From: Bryobacterales bacterium
GTDB lineage: Bacteria > Acidobacteriota > Terriglobia > Bryobacterales > UBA6623
Assembly (NCBI GenBank): GCA_028819215.1
Contig: JAPPMG010000096.1
Coordinates: 62,001 to 126,000, forward strand
Direction of reading: 5' to 3'
DNA length: 64,000 nucleotides
Position 1 is the stretch's first letter. Each line of letters begins with the position of its first letter. Below the pieces are notes generated by a model that did not search any database, was not told where the DNA came from, and saw only the letters and a program-made list of their open reading frames with translations. Below are positions 42,374-50,247 of the stretch, piece by piece. Both the position numbers and the translations under genes were made by a program.

Positions 42374-45151
42374 TCAGGCGGCCGCCTCGAGAGTCAGTCG
42401 GGCCCAAGTCGAATCGGTGCAGTACCTTTGGAACTCGTTGCGGTCGGCGTCAAAGGCCAGCAGGTTCACCCACTGGTTGTGAAACAGGGCCTGCAGGATC
42501 TCGTGCTTGGCGATGATCCCGGAAATCCTCTCCGGCGGTGCGTCGATGACGGCTAGCAGGCGCATCGGTTCGTGGTACCGGCGCGGCCCGTCAATCACGC
42601 CCTGCACTGGCAGGCCGCCCTGCAGGTCGCCTTGGCTGCCCAGCATGACGCCGACCCCGCCCACCACGTTGTGGATCACCTTGCTCCCGCTTCCGTACAC
42701 CCATGGGTCGGCCGAGGAGAAATAGTACTCCATGTTAATCCACTCCCCCACGATGAGCGGAGCGGTCATGATCCGTTCGAGGATGCCTCCGTCAGGGTCG
42801 CTGGCCGGGTCGTAAGAATGCAGGAACACGCGCGCCTCCAGGTCCAGCCCCTTGGTCAGCCAGCGCCTTCCGATCAGAAATGCCGCATTGCTGGAGAGCC
42901 CCCATTCCGGGCGCGGGTTAGCCCAGTCCACGCTGCGTCCGATCGCGTGGAGCACGGCGCGGCGCGCGTTCAGACCACGCGGCACCCCGGGCAGCTTGGC
43001 GATCCGCTCGCTCGCCTGCACCGCGCCGGCCGCGGCCAGGCTCCGTTCCAGTCGGCTGAGCTCGTCCCGGTGGCTCGATGGCACGTCGATCAGGTCGTAG
43101 AAGGAGACGCGGTCGGTGGCGGTATCGTGCTTGGCCGCCACGAACCACACGTCGTCAGGGATCTGCAGGCCGCTCTCGGCTACGGCCCGGCGGACAGCCG
43201 GGTCGTTGGCCATCGTGGTGAACACGCGTGCGTTCGGATCGCCGTGCGCTCCCCCGCAGGCGCCGCAGTTGTAGGCCGCCGCGTACGGGTTGTTGTCGGA
43301 CTCCGAGCCGTGCCCGCACACGACCACCAGCCGTGCCATCGGGTCGGTCAGCCCGATCATCCGCAGGCCGCCCCCAACGAACCCCGCCCTCTCCTCGATC
43401 GTGAATCCGCCAGGCCCGACTGATTCGACCTCGGCCGTCTCCAAGGTAAAGCCGGTCTCCAGCTTGGCTCTGAACCGCCTCCTGAGCAGGGAACGGATCG
43501 CGGCGTAGGGCCGTAGGAACAGGGTCTTGCCGACCAAGGCGATGCTGAACAGGAGGCCAAGCACGTCGACAAGCACGAACGAGCCCAAGGGGTGCTGCTT
43601 CAGGTCGTGGAAGAGCTCGTCTCCGAAGCGCCGCCAGCGCGTGCCGGAGGCATACTTCGCCAGCGGGCGTTCCTCGCCGGGTCGCGGCTCCTCGTCGACT
43701 GCGCGGGGCGGTTTCAGCAACACGGGACACAGCGCCAAGCGGTCAGGGCTGTCGAACGCCTCGTGACTGAAGGGAACGCCGAAGAACCCGGCATAGCCGA
43801 AGGTTTCGAAATTGCCGGAGGCCTCGATATGTCGCCGGAACGGCTCGGAACGGGCATCGATGCAGAAGATCAGCTGCGCGTCCGGCCGGGAACTGGGCAC
43901 CCGCTCCGCCCGGCGGTGTCCCGCTAGCTTGCCCATCAAATGGTCCGCATAGGTGTCTTCGTAGGCCGCCAGCCACACTGGCCCGTGCCGATCCTCGGGA
44001 AAGCGCTCGAGCCAGCCCAGCAGGGTCTTGGCTCCATCGCCGGCCAGCTCGCGGACCTGTTCCGGAGTCAACCCAAGGACCACGGCCAGCTGGTACAGCC
44101 GGCCGACCGCGAGTTGGCGGGCCCCTGCGTCCCCTCCGCGCTCCGCCTGCTCGCGCGCCCAGGCGCGGATGCTGTCCAAGGTGCCGGGCACGCCAAGTTC
44201 CTTGCGGCAGGCGGCCGCGACCAGCTCGACCTCGTAGAACAGCCTCACGGCCAGGTAGTCCACCAAGTCGATGGGGTGCTCGTGCTGGGCCGGGTACTGC
44301 GGGTTTTCGCTCCTCCAGCGCGCGAATCCGGTCCAGCCCGGCAGCTGCGCGAACATGCGCGACTGGTATTCGCCCCATCGTTCCGGAGGGATGCCAAGCC
44401 GCTGCAATCCCGCCTGGATCCACGCCTCGGCGGCATCCGGCAGCGCCTCCACCTTCGCGGCGAAGTCGGGAACCCCCAGGAAACGGCCCGATCGGTCCCG
44501 TCTCGCCAGGTCGCGCCAGCAGCGAAAGAAGCCCTCTTGACGGGAAGGCATGCCCCAGCCGGCCATGCCCTCGTCGAGGAACGAGGCCGACCACTTGATC
44601 ATCTCGTCGTTGATCGAATCCACGACCGGCGAGCCGGCCAGCTCAGCGACCCAGTCGCTGAGAGTTCTCGCCGGCGGCAGGTCCGGCACCCCGTCTTGGT
44701 TGCCACTCCCGTTCTCGGGGCAAGCCTCCGAGGCGGCTGCCAGCAGCTTCGTACTGCCGTCTTCTCTGGCCTGCCAGGCAAGCACCGACGGAGAGGGGGG
44801 CTCGACGCCTTGCGTCAACTGCGCCCAGACAACCTCGTCCGGGTCGAGGGCCCGGCCGCTGACGTGGACGGCCCCTTCGGAAATGTCAGGGCCTAGCCGG
44901 GCCAGAGCCCGGCGCAGGTGTGCGTCCGAGATCCGCCCGGCACGCCGAAAGGCCCGATACTCGCTGCCCGAAAGAAAGCCGGCCCCTCCAATCATCCCAG
45001 CCGCTTCGCGCACGCCTTGGTCGAACGGAAGGTCTTCGTAGCCGCGCACGGGATTGCGGTAAGCGAAGGTCTTCAACGGCCAGATCTGCGCCGCGGGGCG
45101 AGCCGCTTCAAGGACCTGCTCGCGCAGTGCTTGGGATTGGTCGGGACTCAT
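42374..45151 (-). CDS. dabA: DabA-type zinc protein of an inorganic-carbon (DAB) transporter (DUF2309)
   Basis: 925 residues, slightly longer than typical. DabA resembles a beta-carbonic anhydrase and with a NuoL-like partner drives energy-coupled CO2 hydration/bicarbonate accumulation. The predicted zinc and active-site residues are kept: C430 and D432 in LIFCIDARSEPFRRH, H614 in VVCGHGSESDNNP, and C629 in YNCGACGGAHGDPNARV. The N-terminal region has WPLKTFAYRNPVRGYEDLPF and QAEHPIDL-type family features (HEHPIDLVDYL). Only one or two short hydrophobic segments occur (about 522-545), as expected for a peripheral protein. It starts 21 nt after sulP and ends 5 nt before mrpE. Direction of transport and substrate here are inferred. 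Confidence 0.92.
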   Translation of the reverse strand: MSPDQSQALREQVLEAARPAAQIWPLKTFAYRNPVRGYEDLPFDQGVREAAGMIGGAGFLSGSEYRAFRRAGRISDAHLRRALARLGPDISEGAVHVSGRALDPDEVVWAQLTQGVEPPSPSVLAWQAREDGSTKLLAAASEACPENGSGNQDGVPDLPPARTLSDWVAELAGSPVVDSINDEMIKWSASFLDEGMAGWGMPSRQEGFFRCWRDLARRDRSGRFLGVPDFAAKVEALPDAAEAWIQAGLQRLGIPPERWGEYQSRMFAQLPGWTGFARWRSENPQYPAQHEHPIDLVDYLAVRLFYEVELVAAACRKELGVPGTLDSIRAWAREQAERGGDAGARQLAVGRLYQLAVVLGLTPEQVRELAGDGAKTLLGWLERFPEDRHGPVWLAAYEDTYADHLMGKLAGHRRAERVPSSRPDAQLIFCIDARSEPFRRHIEASGNFETFGYAGFFGVPFSHEAFDSPDRLALCPVLLKPPRAVDEEPRPGEERPLAKYASGTRWRRFGDELFHDLKQHPLGSFVLVDVLGLLFSIALVGKTLFLRPYAAIRSLLRRRFRAKLETGFTLETAEVESVGPGGFTIEERAGFVGGGLRMIGLTDPMARLVVVCGHGSESDNNPYAAAYNCGACGGAHGDPNARVFTTMANDPAVRRAVAESGLQIPDDVWFVAAKHDTATDRVSFYDLIDVPSSHRDELSRLERSLAAAGAVQASERIAKLPGVPRGLNARRAVLHAIGRSVDWANPRPEWGLSSNAAFLIGRRWLTKGLDLEARVFLHSYDPASDPDGGILERIMTAPLIVGEWINMEYYFSSADPWVYGSGSKVIHNVVGGVGVMLGSQGDLQGGLPVQGVIDGPRRYHEPMRLLAVIDAPPERISGIIAKHEILQALFHNQWVNLLAFDADRNEFQRYCTDSTWARLTLEAAA

Positions 45152-45172
45152 CGGGGTGCTGGGCCTGGCCGC

Positions 45173-46765
45173 TCAGGACTTCTTCGTACGGGCTGCGGTG
45201 GGATCGTCCGAGAAGGGGTGATGCCCCTCGAGACCCCGGATCTCGAGGCTCGCTCCCTCCTCTTCGAACTCTTTCTCCATTTCGCGCAGCCGATCCATGA
45301 CCGTGTGATCGACGAGCGTCGTCCCCGACAGGTCGACCCGAACCGCAGTCTCTCCCTTGAGGGCTTCAATCCGCTTCTTAAGGCCGATCCAAGTCGAGAA
45401 CACCGCCGAGTCGTTTACCTTAACGGTGGCTCCATCCTCGGAGCGGTCGATGTCGGCCCGAAGCCGGAACAGCGAGGCGACCGGCACGCCGTTCACGAGG
45501 TGGATGAGGACCTTGACCAAGATTCCGATCCCGATCCCTACGAGCAGGTCCGTGGCCAGCACTCCGACAATCGTGGCGACGAAGATGACGAGCTGCTCGC
45601 GGCCCACGTGGTACATGTGCACGAATTCCTTCGGCGAGGCCAGCCGGAAGCCGGTAAAGACGAGCATCGCTCCGAGGGCGGCCAGCGGGATCATGTTGAT
45701 CAGAGCGGGGGCAAGCGCCACGAACACCAGCAGGAACATGCCGTGGTACATGTTCGCGAAACGGGTCTTTGCCCCGTTGTCGATGTTCGCCTTGCTGCGG
45801 ACAATCTCAGAGATCATCGGCAGGCCTCCCACCAACGCCGAGGCCGTGTTCCCTACTCCGATCGCCAGCAGGTCGCCATCGTAATTGGTCTTCCTGCGGT
45901 ACGGGTCGATCTGGTCGACCGCCTTGGCACTGAGCAGCGACTCGAGGCTGCCGATTAACGAGAAGAGGATGATGTACTTAACCCCTGTTGCGGTCGCGAC
46001 ACCGGAGAAGTCCGGGAACGTCAGAGCGCCGAACATATTGGACGGAACGTCGACGAGGAACTCGCGCCCCAGACCGTAGTGCAGCCCTAGCGGCACGGTG
46101 ACCAGCACCACCACGAGCGGTGCCGGTATGGCTCTGAGGCCCGGGATCTTCAGGAACGGATATCCAAACATGATGACCAAGCTGATGATGCCGATCAGGC
46201 CCACTTGGGGATGCATGTCGGTGAAGTAGCTGGGAATCCTAGCCAGCAGCTCAAGCGGCGTCCCCTCCGAGCCGAGCCCCAGCGTGACGGGTAGCTGCTT
46301 GGCGAAGATAATCACGCCGATTGAGGCGAGTAGCCCGTGTACGGCGGCCGGGGGGAAGAACTCGCCCAAGATGCCGGACCGGAACACGCCGAAGAGAATC
46401 TGGATGACGCCTGCGACGACGCCCACGCCCAGGGCCAAGCGGTACGCGTCGATGTCGGCGGCCGGATCGCGGCCCGCGGTGAAGCCGAAGTCTGTCACGC
46501 ACCCGATAGCGATGACGATGAGGCCGGCCGCCGGGCCCTTGATCGTCAGCTCGGAATTGCTAAACACGGTGCCGACGATCCCGCCGATAATTGCGGTGAA
46601 TATCCCTGCTATGGCCGGGTAGCCGCAGGCCAGGGAAATTCCGAGGCAGAGGGGCAGCGCGATGAGGAAGACCAGGAATCCGGACAGCAGGTCAGGTCCC
46701 CAGTAGCGCTTGAAGCCCGATCCGTTTCCTTGCGGAATGTCCCCGGTGTCGACCATAAGAGACAT
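45173..46765 (-). CDS. SulP-family anion transporter (possible bicarbonate transporter) with STAS domain
   Basis: 530 residues from the ATG at 46765; an ATG at 46756 is an alternative start. Ten or more membrane spans include SGFLVFLIALPLCLGISLACGYP, TIKGPAAGLIVI and GSLESLLSAKAVDQIDP, all SulP features. A C-terminal STAS-like domain lies at about 430-505 (TAVRVDLSGTTLVDHTVMDRL). SulP members carry sulfate, bicarbonate (BicA) or other anions. Being first in the operon with dabA and Mrp genes, it is most likely for bicarbonate, but sulfate cannot be excluded. TATCCT lies directly upstream of the first ATG. Confidence 0.9.
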   Translation of the reverse strand: MSLMVDTGDIPQGNGSGFKRYWGPDLLSGFLVFLIALPLCLGISLACGYPAIAGIFTAIIGGIVGTVFSNSELTIKGPAAGLIVIAIGCVTDFGFTAGRDPAADIDAYRLALGVGVVAGVIQILFGVFRSGILGEFFPPAAVHGLLASIGVIIFAKQLPVTLGLGSEGTPLELLARIPSYFTDMHPQVGLIGIISLVIMFGYPFLKIPGLRAIPAPLVVVLVTVPLGLHYGLGREFLVDVPSNMFGALTFPDFSGVATATGVKYIILFSLIGSLESLLSAKAVDQIDPYRRKTNYDGDLLAIGVGNTASALVGGLPMISEIVRSKANIDNGAKTRFANMYHGMFLLVFVALAPALINMIPLAALGAMLVFTGFRLASPKEFVHMYHVGREQLVIFVATIVGVLATDLLVGIGIGILVKVLIHLVNGVPVASLFRLRADIDRSEDGATVKVNDSAVFSTWIGLKKRIEALKGETAVRVDLSGTTLVDHTVMDRLREMEKEFEEEGASLEIRGLEGHHPFSDDPTAARTKKS

Positions 46766-47163
46766 AGGATACCGGATTCGGCGACGCGACCGTCGAGTTG
46801 CGCCGGAAACCGCAGGCATACGCTCCGGGGGCCTGTTCCGCTCGGGCTGGCAGGAGCGTGCCGGTTGAGGTCCGCGTCTCGCAGCCGGACACTGTGCGCC
46901 AGCTCGGAACGGCGCCTTGGCGCGGCGGGTTCTCGCGCGCTGAGCGGCGCATGGCACGAGAGAAGGGCGGTACTGTCGGTGCAGGATACGACGACCGCTT
47001 GCAGCATCGGGCCCAGCATGTTTCTGCGGACCCTCGGCGGTCACAGTTCCCACCGAGACCGCGACCGCTTGGAAGGCCGTCCCTTGCTGCGGCGTTCGAC
47101 CTCCTGCCCGCGCTCGCCGACGAATCTGGACCGAGGCGACGCGGCCGCGAATCGACAGTTGCC
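46766..47163. other. Intergenic stretch upstream of the sulP-dabA-mrp operon
   Basis: 398 bases between the end of the SH3 lipoprotein gene and sulP. It should contain the promoter of the 11-gene operon. A TATCCT hexamer abuts the sulP start (46766-46771, minus strand). I see no gene, tRNA or clear hairpin terminator. Open frames here are GC-driven. Confidence 0.5.
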
Positions 47164-48228
47164 CTAGCGTGGCCGGGGGCTCTCTGGCGGTGAAAATACA
47201 TAGCGCGAACCGAAGCCGCCGGGCGGAACGTGCTGCGGCGCCCCGGCCACAGGTTTCTCGTCCAGTTGGTAGACCCGGTTAGCGATGTAGAAATAGTTCC
47301 GGCCGCGCATCTGGCCGTCGTTGTCTAGCAGAACTTGGATGCCCACGCCGGTTCCGCGCTCGGAGTTGACGTTCGGCCTGACTTCGACGGGCAGGTAGCC
47401 GGTGAGGTTCGAATACTGCCGAATCACGATGTAACGACTCCGTCTGGCGTCCCACCGCAAGACCGACATGCGGTCAAAGTCATGCACTTGCTCGCCCCGG
47501 CTCGATTGGAACCAAAGCCAGGTGGTCTTGGCTTCGCCGCTCGTCTGGTCGGCCACCGATCCGATCGGAAAGTAGGCGACAATCGAGCGACCTTGGGCCA
47601 GCATCGCGACTTCGAGCGGGATGTCGGCATACGCCATGTTCGCGATCAGCCACCCGGTCTGGCCAAGTTTCGGGATCCGCACCAGATACCAATAGTCCAA
47701 GCCGGTCGGCTGGGGCGGTGTCCTGGCGGTGGCTGCGGCTGCCGGCAAGCGATCGACTAGCATCCGATCCAGCATCTCCACGCCTTCGTCCTTTTCCAAC
47801 TGGTAGAAGGTCGGCGCCCAGCGATATGGCTGCGTATGCACGTTGAGCGTGTCCCGGGAGCGGTAGAGCCCTTGGCCCGGCAGCGCAGCAGTCTGGCTCG
47901 TCAGCGCTCGCAGCCCGCGTCGCAGGTTGCTGTCAAGCAGCATTGCCCTCGGGGCCCAGCCCTCTCGGCCATCGATCGTGCGCAGTCTGACAAAGCTCCG
48001 GTGCGTCTCCAAGATCCGGGCGCGCGTGTCGAAGTCTAGGACCCCAACCGCGGGTGCGTCGGGCTCGAGCCCGGAGTACAGCTCTACACGATTGCGGCTG
48101 AATAACGTCTCGTCATCCGCGAGCTCTTGCGACCCCCCGCCGCAACTGGCCAGCGACCACGCGGAGACGACTGCGACGATCGCACGTAGCAACATACGCG
48201 TTCCAAGCCGCGACGAGTCCATCTTCAT
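47164..48228 (-). CDS. Lipoprotein with SH3-like domains
   Basis: About 354 residues from the ATG at 48228 (48222 also possible). A lipoprotein signal ends at the lipobox SLASCGGG. Two bacterial SH3-like segments follow: one around VELYSGLEPDAPAVGVLDFDTRARILETH...GWAPRAML and one starting RDTLNVHTQPYRWAPTFYQL and ending LGQTGWLIANMAY. Such domains bind cell-wall peptides or other proteins. The C-terminal third is a beta-rich domain (VIRQYSNLTGYLPVEV) I do not recognise. It is divergent from the ZIP/CNB gene with 192 bases between. Confidence 0.65.
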   Translation of the reverse strand: MKMDSSRLGTRMLLRAIVAVVSAWSLASCGGGSQELADDETLFSRNRVELYSGLEPDAPAVGVLDFDTRARILETHRSFVRLRTIDGREGWAPRAMLLDSNLRRGLRALTSQTAALPGQGLYRSRDTLNVHTQPYRWAPTFYQLEKDEGVEMLDRMLVDRLPAAAATARTPPQPTGLDYWYLVRIPKLGQTGWLIANMAYADIPLEVAMLAQGRSIVAYFPIGSVADQTSGEAKTTWLWFQSSRGEQVHDFDRMSVLRWDARRSRYIVIRQYSNLTGYLPVEVRPNVNSERGTGVGIQVLLDNDGQMRGRNYFYIANRVYQLDEKPVAGAPQHVPPGGFGSRYVFSPPESPRPR

Positions 48229-48420
48229 GGCGTGGACTACGTGCTGCGCGGCCATCTCGGTGACGGGTGCGCCGCCAACCATGGTAAACCCGCAAGGGCA
48301 GGCCGCGCCGTGGGCTTCGCTGTGGGCGGGGCTATTCTTGAGGAACGGTGGGTTGCGCTCTCCAAGGAGCAGACGCGCTGCATTCCGTTGCTTTGATTGC
48401 GCAGTTGTGAGGTGTTCGCG

Positions 48421-50247
48421 GTGGCGGAGTCTTTGACTCTTTTCGCGTTGTCGATGGGACTTCTGAGCGCATGCTCGCTGCCACTGGGAACGCTGTCGAC
48501 CCTGGTCTGGCGACCTCATGACCGCTCCGTCGGCATCCTAATGGCCTTCGGCGGCGGCGCTCTCCTGGCAGCGCTGACGCTCGATCTGGTCTCCTCCGCG
48601 CTTGCACAGGGGCATTTCCCGTGGCTCGCGGCGGGATGCGTTCTCGGGGGCGGCATGTTCGTCGGGTTGAACAACGTAATCAACCATCACGGGGGCTTCC
48701 TGCGCAAGTCTTCGACCGTGGTGAACTATCTGCGCCGCAGGCGCCGCAAGCGCTTCAGGAAGGCGCTCGGCGAACTGGAGCGGATCGCCATATTTCGCGA
48801 CCTGAAACGACATGACCTCGAAGATCTCGCGTCCGCTGCCATGCACGCCGAATTCGAGACCGGCGCAACCATCTTCAGTGTTGGAGACCCGTCCGACTTC
48901 CTCTATCTGGTCTGGGAAGGAGAGGTGTCGACGACGGATCCGTCGCTACCGAGCGCTACGCCCGCGGTACACCGCACGGGCGGGACTCCCGGGCAGCATG
49001 CCTTCATCACCGGGTCTCCCCACACCAGGCATGCCGTCGCGACGCAGGACGCGCAGGTCTGGATGCTGCCACGAGAGGAATTCCAGAAGGCTGTGGGGCT
49101 TTCGGAGCCGCTCGCTGCCGCAACCGCGAAGCTCATTTCTAGCGACGCTGTCGCCGACTACTTGAAGAATCGCCAAGGACTGACCGGGGAACAGGTCGCT
49201 CGCTGGCGGGAGAGCGCCTTCGCGGGCGTTGCCGCCGGCGTGTTGCCCAACGCCGTCGGCATCGAGCGCCATCGCGACGAGTTTGTCCGCACATCTGCCG
49301 GAATCCGCAGCCTTCCCATCTTTCGCGGACTGTCGCCGACGGATCTGAGCGCTGTCGCCGACCGGCTGTTCTGTGTGCGGTACGAACGGGGCGAGACGAT
49401 CTACCGCCACGGCGAACTGGCGGACCGCCTCTACGTTGTGGCGAGCGGGCAGGCGGCGTTGATTCCCCCGGCGGGACGGGCTCTCCGGCGCATGACCGCG
49501 GAACCGGGCGAGGCGCTCGGCGGCAAGTCGTTCATCACTAACGCACGCCGCTTCTACAGTTCCGTCGCGATCGATGCTACGGAGCTCTGGGTGCTGCGCA
49601 AGTCCGACTTCGACGCATTGATGCGGCGCTATCCGGCGATTTCGGAGAAGGTCAGGGAGTATCTCGAAGGTGTGGAGAACCGGGACTACCTGACGAGTGT
49701 GCGAGGGTCGGCTACGCGGGAAGTGCAGCGTTGGATCAGCCGCGCCACGCGGAACGTCGACAGCGGTCGTCTGATGCCGTCGGTCCCGGACATGGCCGCG
49801 CATGTCAATCTCCACAAGGGCGCGCCGCTGGCCATCTGGCTGGGCATCCTGCTGGACGGCATCCCCGAATCCCTGGTCATCGGCAGCTCGCTGATTCACG
49901 GCCCGGTCAGCTTTTCCCTGATTGCCGGCCTGTTTTTGTCGAACTACCCCGAGGCGTTGTCGAGTTCGGTCGGGATGCAGCAGCAAGGGATGAGTTTCGC
50001 GAGGGTCCTGTTCATGTGGGCCTCGCTGATGGTGCTGACCGGCATCGGGGCGGCGCTCGGCAGCATCTTCTTCGTCGGAGCGGATCCGCACGCCTTCGGC
50101 CTGGTTCAAGGGATTGCCGCCGGCGCGATGCTGACCATGATTGCGCAGACGATGGTGCCCGACGCCTACCTGAAAGCGGGCCCAGTCATTGGCATTGCGA
50201 CGCTGATGGGTTTTCTGGCTGCAATCTTCTTCAAGACCCTTGAATAG
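48421..50247 (+). CDS. ZIP-like metal transporter interrupted by two cyclic-nucleotide-binding-like domains
   Basis: 608 residues from the GTG at 48421, with GAGG 8 nt before it. Three membrane spans lie at about 3-85 (GILMAFGGGALLAALTLDLV is ZIP-like). A very basic linker (LRRRRRKRFRKAL) leads to two cNMP-binding-like beta-barrels at about 118-245 and 300-420. Five more spans follow from about 472. ZIP-type helices 4 and 5 are recognisable as LLDGIPESLVIGSSL (P482-E483) and LFLSNYPEALSSSVGM (P510-E511), though the usual histidines are replaced by Asp/Asn. The second barrel keeps a phosphate-cassette-like GEALGGKSFITNARRF; the first has GQ for GE. Role inferred: ion or metal transport gated by a nucleotide or other ligand. 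I know of no characterised homologue. Confidence 0.75.
   Translation: MAESLTLFALSMGLLSACSLPLGTLSTLVWRPHDRSVGILMAFGGGALLAALTLDLVSSALAQGHFPWLAAGCVLGGGMFVGLNNVINHHGGFLRKSSTVVNYLRRRRRKRFRKALGELERIAIFRDLKRHDLEDLASAAMHAEFETGATIFSVGDPSDFLYLVWEGEVSTTDPSLPSATPAVHRTGGTPGQHAFITGSPHTRHAVATQDAQVWMLPREEFQKAVGLSEPLAAATAKLISSDAVADYLKNRQGLTGEQVARWRESAFAGVAAGVLPNAVGIERHRDEFVRTSAGIRSLPIFRGLSPTDLSAVADRLFCVRYERGETIYRHGELADRLYVVASGQAALIPPAGRALRRMTAEPGEALGGKSFITNARRFYSSVAIDATELWVLRKSDFDALMRRYPAISEKVREYLEGVENRDYLTSVRGSATREVQRWISRATRNVDSGRLMPSVPDMAAHVNLHKGAPLAIWLGILLDGIPESLVIGSSLIHGPVSFSLIAGLFLSNYPEALSSSVGMQQQGMSFARVLFMWASLMVLTGIGAALGSIFFVGADPHAFGLVQGIAAGAMLTMIAQTMVPDAYLKAGPVIGIATLMGFLAAIFFKTLE

Follow-up and report, generated by a model that had tools for sequence, protein, structure and literature searches.

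A divergent ZIP-fold protein of bacteria with tandem cyclic-nucleotide-binding-like domains in the loop between transmembrane helices 3 and 4

Introduction

ZIP transporters are controlled mostly by expression, by traffic and by metal binding in the loop between transmembrane helices 3 and 4 (TM3-TM4 loop). They are two-bundle elevators, in which TM1/4/5/6 move against TM2/3/7/8; upon removal of the metal the cytosolic end of TM4 swings off TM3 and TM7, and in human ZIP4 transport is affected by the second intracellular loop (PMC9278863, PMC9873690). Here we describe a gene in which this loop holds two cyclic-nucleotide-binding (CNB) domains. It lies in a stretch of 64,000 nucleotides from a Bryobacterales bacterium (contig JAPPMG010000096.1, positions 62,001 to 126,000), hereafter the window, whose own numbering is used throughout, and was first pointed out in a first-pass annotation made from the sequence alone.

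The closest described transporter is BbZIP, a GufA-type ZIP of Bordetella bronchiseptica (PDB 8ght, 5tsa). The window protein shares with it the eight-helix two-bundle fold, the order of three and five helices, the Pro-Glu pairs of TM4 and TM5, and Glu181 and Glu211, whereas in BbZIP the TM3-TM4 loop is short, one more TM stands at the N terminus and a CNB domain is lacking. The primary transport site of BbZIP is M1 (PMC9873690); E276A is a damaging mutation, unlike H177A and M99A, which are tolerated (PMC9278863). Transport proteins with a CNB sensor include MloK1, SthK, SLC9C1 and the CNB domains fused to MFS transporters (PMC10710835), but in MloK1, SthK and SLC9C1 the CNB domain follows the membrane part, and the host folds, MFS included, are unrelated to ZIP. 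Two serial CNB barrels with following helices are also found in the PKA R subunit and PKG, there upstream of a kinase and not inside a transporter. The CBD of family 2B encapsulins is likewise a CNB domain with a divergent pocket within a loop of its host fold, which is a capsid-fold shell protein. A literature search for ZIP proteins with CNB domains found no description; its coverage was incomplete, so that this is an absence of a find only.

Results

The gene and its parts are as follows, all on the plus strand.

48421-50247: whole ZIP-CNB-CNB gene, 608 amino acids from GTG 48421, in the order ZIP TM1-3, CNB1, CNB2, ZIP TM4-8
48424-48687: membrane half 1, TM1-TM3 (model residues 2-89), from AlphaFold2 helices, a weak Pfam Zip match and the metal-site comparison
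48583-48585: codon of the nearly invariant Asp of TM2 that corresponds to BbZIP S106, from the metal-site comparison
48709-48777: helix with the poly-basic stretch LRRRRRKRFRK (48730-48762) leading from TM3 to CNB1, from the AlphaFold2 model; it indicates the cytosolic side
48742-49155: CNB1, cassette GQHAFITGSPH at 48991-49023 with Gln for Glu and His for Arg, from Pfam, VIA-align and the cassette comparison
49270-49710: CNB2 and following helices, cassette GGKSFITNARR at 49519-49551 with Gly for Glu and Arg kept, from Pfam, PDB alignments and the cassette comparison
49822-50238: membrane half 2, TM4-TM8, with DGIPES in TM4 (49855-49872) and SNYPEA in TM5 (49939-49956), from the family profile, the AlphaFold2 model and the metal-site comparison

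The frame at 48421-50247 is a single open frame with zero internal stops. GAGG is located 8 bases 5' of GTG 48421, and TTG 48397 is an alternative upstream start of the same frame. Among ten other genomes of the genus, five carry the gene, one of these copies being divided over two contigs. In pairwise comparisons of the window gene with relatives L061-L064, dN/dS is 0.12-0.16 for the whole gene, 0.04-0.07 for TM4-8, 0.10-0.15 for CNB2 and 0.11-0.27 for CNB1, which makes TM4-8 the most conserved part and CNB1 the least. Purifying selection thus acts on all parts of this single intact gene, the CNB domains included. The first-pass annotation had named a frameshift or the artificial joining of two genes as what would overturn its proposal; this is rejected because intact orthologues and homologues retain the domain order and because of the dN/dS of the whole gene. 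An open reading frame of 451 amino acids at 47164-48519 on the minus strand, which probably encodes an SH3_3-domain lipoprotein, covers the start of the gene; its likely true start is at about 48195, and therefore there is no real overlap.

It was proposed in the first-pass annotation that the three first and five last spans are ZIP-like, and the predicted structure agrees. The AlphaFold2 model of the window protein, built from 37 family members (pLDDT 82.5, pTM 0.59), has helices 1-3, then two barrels, then helices 4-8. When the model is searched with VIA-align, BbZIP ranks first (Z 24.0, 237 aligned residues, root-mean-square deviation 2.5 A) and is matched over both halves (model range 1-608), followed by CNB domains (Z 15-17). 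For the model of a relative with one CNB domain, Z is 23.9 against BbZIP and 19.7 against the CNB domain of PKG. Taken alone, the N-half of the window protein matches Pfam Zip weakly and below the cut-off (E 0.006-0.016) and its C-half has no Pfam Zip match; across the family, Pfam Zip is the commonest match, with 26 of 29 C-halves and 23 of 24 N-halves. The sole structure in the PDB matched by the family profile of the C-half is BbZIP (E 7e-9), and the profile of the N-half alone has no match there. The ZIP kinship is thus seen in the modelled eight-TM 3+5 fold, in the profiles and in the Pro-Glu pairs of TM4 and TM5.

A scan of 84,980 genomes yielded 48 loci, from which 41 sequences, the window included, were analysed. 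Besides the host, 40 genomes from at least ten phyla have full-length relatives, the loci being spread over Acidobacteriota, Pseudomonadota, Nitrospirota, Planctomycetota, Verrucomicrobiota, Spirochaetota, Bacteroidota, Chlorobiota, Fibrobacterota, Actinomycetota and Bacillota. Many of the source genomes are metagenome-assembled, and the cultured Thiomicrorhabdus chilensis and Hydrogenovibrio halophilus are also among them. The ZIP-CNB-CNB-ZIP order claimed earlier is borne out by the predicted fold together with the 40 homologues. Two CNB domains are present in 36 of the 41 members (loop core 364-378 residues), and one in the remaining five (195-196 residues). In the tree of the membrane parts, the single forms branch on one side and the double forms on the other, the window protein belongs to the double clade, and cousins free of CNB domains make a third group. 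In the tree of the CNB domains, CNB2 forms one group (98/95) and the single domains another (100/99), while CNB1 is not resolved as one group; this tree fits one tandem CNB duplication in the double branch.

The CNB-free cousins (L032-L036) are compact proteins of about 250 amino acids with a DGIPES/SNxPE signature and a short basic loop where the window protein has its CNB domains. Identity in the C-half is 36-49%, and the three checked for it (L032, L033 and L036) have the same substituted metal site. Plasmid records of, for example, Deinococcus, Rhizobium and Pantoea label cousins of this kind ZIP family zinc transporter. Because these proteins carry the same signature, a divergent ZIP branch that already existed would either have gained the CNB domains by insertion or have lost them, which of the two being a matter of conjecture. 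Two aberrant copies were also seen. In Thiocystis minor (L077:224-1429), CNB1 is seemingly joined directly to TM4, apparently a separate loss of CNB2, and TM1 is missing or out of frame, as may result from gene decay or from an assembly error. The copy of Scalindua rubra (L083:5183-6561) is without CNB1 and broken between TM2 and CNB2; the gene of another Scalindua (L073) is intact.

The metal site was compared by aligning the family with 20 canonical ZIPs and reading it through a BbZIP-like member, in BbZIP numbering. M99 is replaced by Leu, H177 by Asp, Q207 by Ser and E276 by Thr in all 41 members, S106 by Asp in 39, E240 by Thr in 40 and N178 by Gly in 38. Glu181, Glu211, Pro180 and Pro210 are unchanged throughout, so that the Pro-Glu pairs noticed earlier in the two metal-binding helices (P180-E181 of TM4 and P210-E211 of TM5) are present in 41 of 41. 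It had also been suggested that the ZIP histidines are replaced by Asp and Asn. The change of His177 to Asp is real, but Asn in TM5 is usual, being present at position 208 in 19 of the 20 canonical relatives, and the other genuine change is that of Gln207 to Ser. Since the canonical binuclear site (M99, H177, N178, Q207, E240) is replaced in 38-41 of 41 members, the protein, as modelled, is a member of a divergent ZIP-fold subfamily and not a canonical zinc ZIP. The altered metal or ion choice proposed earlier is plausible because the site is changed in every member, and the all-carboxylate composition suggests a cation harder than zinc.

Pfam cNMP_binding (PF00027) is found twice in the window protein (E 3e-30), which, together with the structural matches, identifies two CNB barrels. 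They lie in the cytosolic TM3-TM4 loop after the poly-Arg helix, as the first-pass annotation had placed them, and fold and homologues agree on this. The phosphate-binding cassettes, aligned on the single-form cassette LGEMALVTGELRSASA, are intact in the single forms, where the Glu that contacts the ribose and the Arg that contacts the phosphate are each present in 5 of 5. Among the 36 double forms, CNB1 has the Glu in none and the Arg in two, with His in its place in 20; CNB2 has the Glu in none and the Arg in five, with His in 30. Overall, the Glu is missing from 72 of 72 double-form domains and the Arg from 65 of 72, and across phyla CNB2 shows a uniform substitute pattern, Ala-Arg-His-Ser/Thr. 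The full cassette is found in neither CNB domain of the window protein. It had been read as kept in CNB2 and degenerate in CNB1: CNB2 does keep the Arg and CNB1 has Gln and His, but alignment to solved CRP-type proteins puts the 'GE' of CNB2 in a PGE that lies three residues before the cassette, whose own Glu position is Gly.

The CBD of encapsulin 2B is the top or leading NCBIfam match for the double-form CNB domains, and this domain binds no cyclic nucleotide (PMC12407261). In trypanosome PKA the cassette Arg is lost and nucleosides are bound (PMC10959531). By analogy, both may serve as precedents for changed CNB ligands, though not as proof. A search for encapsulins in the phylum, aimed at comparing pockets, matched the shell part only and was not used.

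The host genome (98.98% complete) has no match to the three cyclase families searched, PF00211 (class III), PF01295 (class I) and PF01928 (CYTH), and no cyclase of these classes was found in two congeners tested. Class III cyclases are present in 5 of 5 single-form genomes and absent from 6 of 19 double-form genomes. The gating by cyclic nucleotides proposed earlier thus has no support in the window protein, because neither CNB domain has the full cassette and no class III, class I or CYTH cyclase was found; judging from the sequences, the transporter is probably not gated by cyclic AMP (cAMP) in the host organism. Gating by cAMP or cyclic GMP (cGMP) is plausible in the single-CNB clade. In two unrelated genomes of the double clade, a class III cyclase gene lies directly beside the ZIP-CNB-CNB gene.

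L066:6567-7808, minus strand: class III cyclase gene
L068:2877-4340, plus strand: class III cyclase gene

Just downstream of another ZIP-CNB-CNB gene lies a gene for a metallo-beta-lactamase-fold protein with a match to the Pfam family Anti-Pycsar Apyc1 (L081:6637-7446, plus strand).

One further feature of the window was considered as a functional partner.

42374-47053, minus strand: DabA (PF10070, E 7e-254) adjoining a SulP permease, likely an inorganic-carbon uptake pair

This pair is syntenic only in L061 and L062, which are the nearest relatives, and is absent beside the gene in L063/L064 and elsewhere, and was rejected. In Thiomicrorhabdus a FemAB_like gene comes after the ZIP-CNB-CNB gene, and in one Bacteroidetes it has hydrogenase and HlyD genes on either side. 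A phage or mobile origin was also rejected, with zero relatives in viral contigs or phage records.

Discussion

We infer from the sequences and the model that the protein may be a ZIP-type elevator transporter with a tandem CNB sensor in place of the cytosolic TM3-TM4 loop. TM3 is part of the scaffold bundle, which is static, and TM4 part of the transport bundle, which moves; in this reading the CNB pair is thus a covalent bridge that links the two bundles at their cytosolic ends. If a ligand rearranged the CNB domains, they could then pull on or release TM4 and thereby set the transport rate; that they gate transport at all is suggested by analogy. The cargo would be a cation, probably a hard one, passing an all-carboxylate site of Asp177, Glu181 and Glu211 with Asp106 from TM2. 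The ligand of the two-CNB clade would be some other small molecule than cAMP or cGMP, and the one-CNB clade may be gated by one of these two. We regard a ligand-regulated ZIP-type elevator with a tandem CNB sensor, responding in the two-CNB clade to a ligand other than cAMP, as about evenly balanced between right and wrong. The fuller version, an allosteric elevator whose flux of hard cations through the all-carboxylate site is set by cAMP or cGMP in the one-CNB clade and by a different ligand after the duplication, is put forward tentatively.

Several observations weigh against a regulated elevator of this kind. Glu276, important for zinc transport by BbZIP, is Thr in the whole family, and the entry residue Asp305 is mostly Lys; given these changes, transport may be lost or different. 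There is no conserved gene neighbour among the homologue loci beyond small groups, and none supports a function. The cyclase genes beside the double-CNB genes L066 and L068 would fit cAMP as the ligand; such adjacency is expected about 0.07 times by chance over 24 genomes (P about 0.002, noticed post hoc).

It is unlikely, in our estimate, that the CNB pair has degenerated into a scaffold that binds no ligand and serves to dimerise the transporter, to stabilise it or to dock a partner, with no gating. The loss of the cassette from both copies in all 36 double forms and the low conservation of CNB1 are in its favour, but the core length is nearly fixed, and CNB2, with its uniform Ala-Arg-His-Ser/Thr, is under strong selection and looks more like a re-tuned pocket than a decayed one. 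Alternatively, the membrane part could have ceased to transport and become a metal or ion sensor signalling to or from the CNB domains, a transceptor, as might be read from the changed ligands of both metal sites and the changed entry and release path in every member (Leu99, Asp106, Asp177, Gly178, Ser207, Thr240, Thr276). We consider this quite improbable: Glu181, Glu211 and the two Pro residues are retained, conservation is highest in TM4-8, the compact CNB-free cousins with the same site are annotated as transporters, and no output domain other than the CNB domains is present. Very doubtful is a metal transporter gated by cAMP or cGMP in the host organism too. The CNB2 of the window genus keeps the cassette Arg, and two homologues have the neighbouring cyclase gene; however, the cassette Glu is absent from every double-form CNB domain, the host genome lacks matches to the three cyclase families, and class III cyclases are absent from some of the double-form genomes.

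Being a naturally occurring ZIP whose TM3-TM4 loop carries a folded ligand sensor, the ligand-regulated elevator proposed here would allow direct tests of allosteric control in an elevator transporter. The uniformly changed metal site marks a ZIP branch whose cargo may be other than zinc, even though its CNB-free members are labelled zinc transporters in public records. The one-CNB and two-CNB branches constitute a natural experiment on how CNB domains change their ligand.
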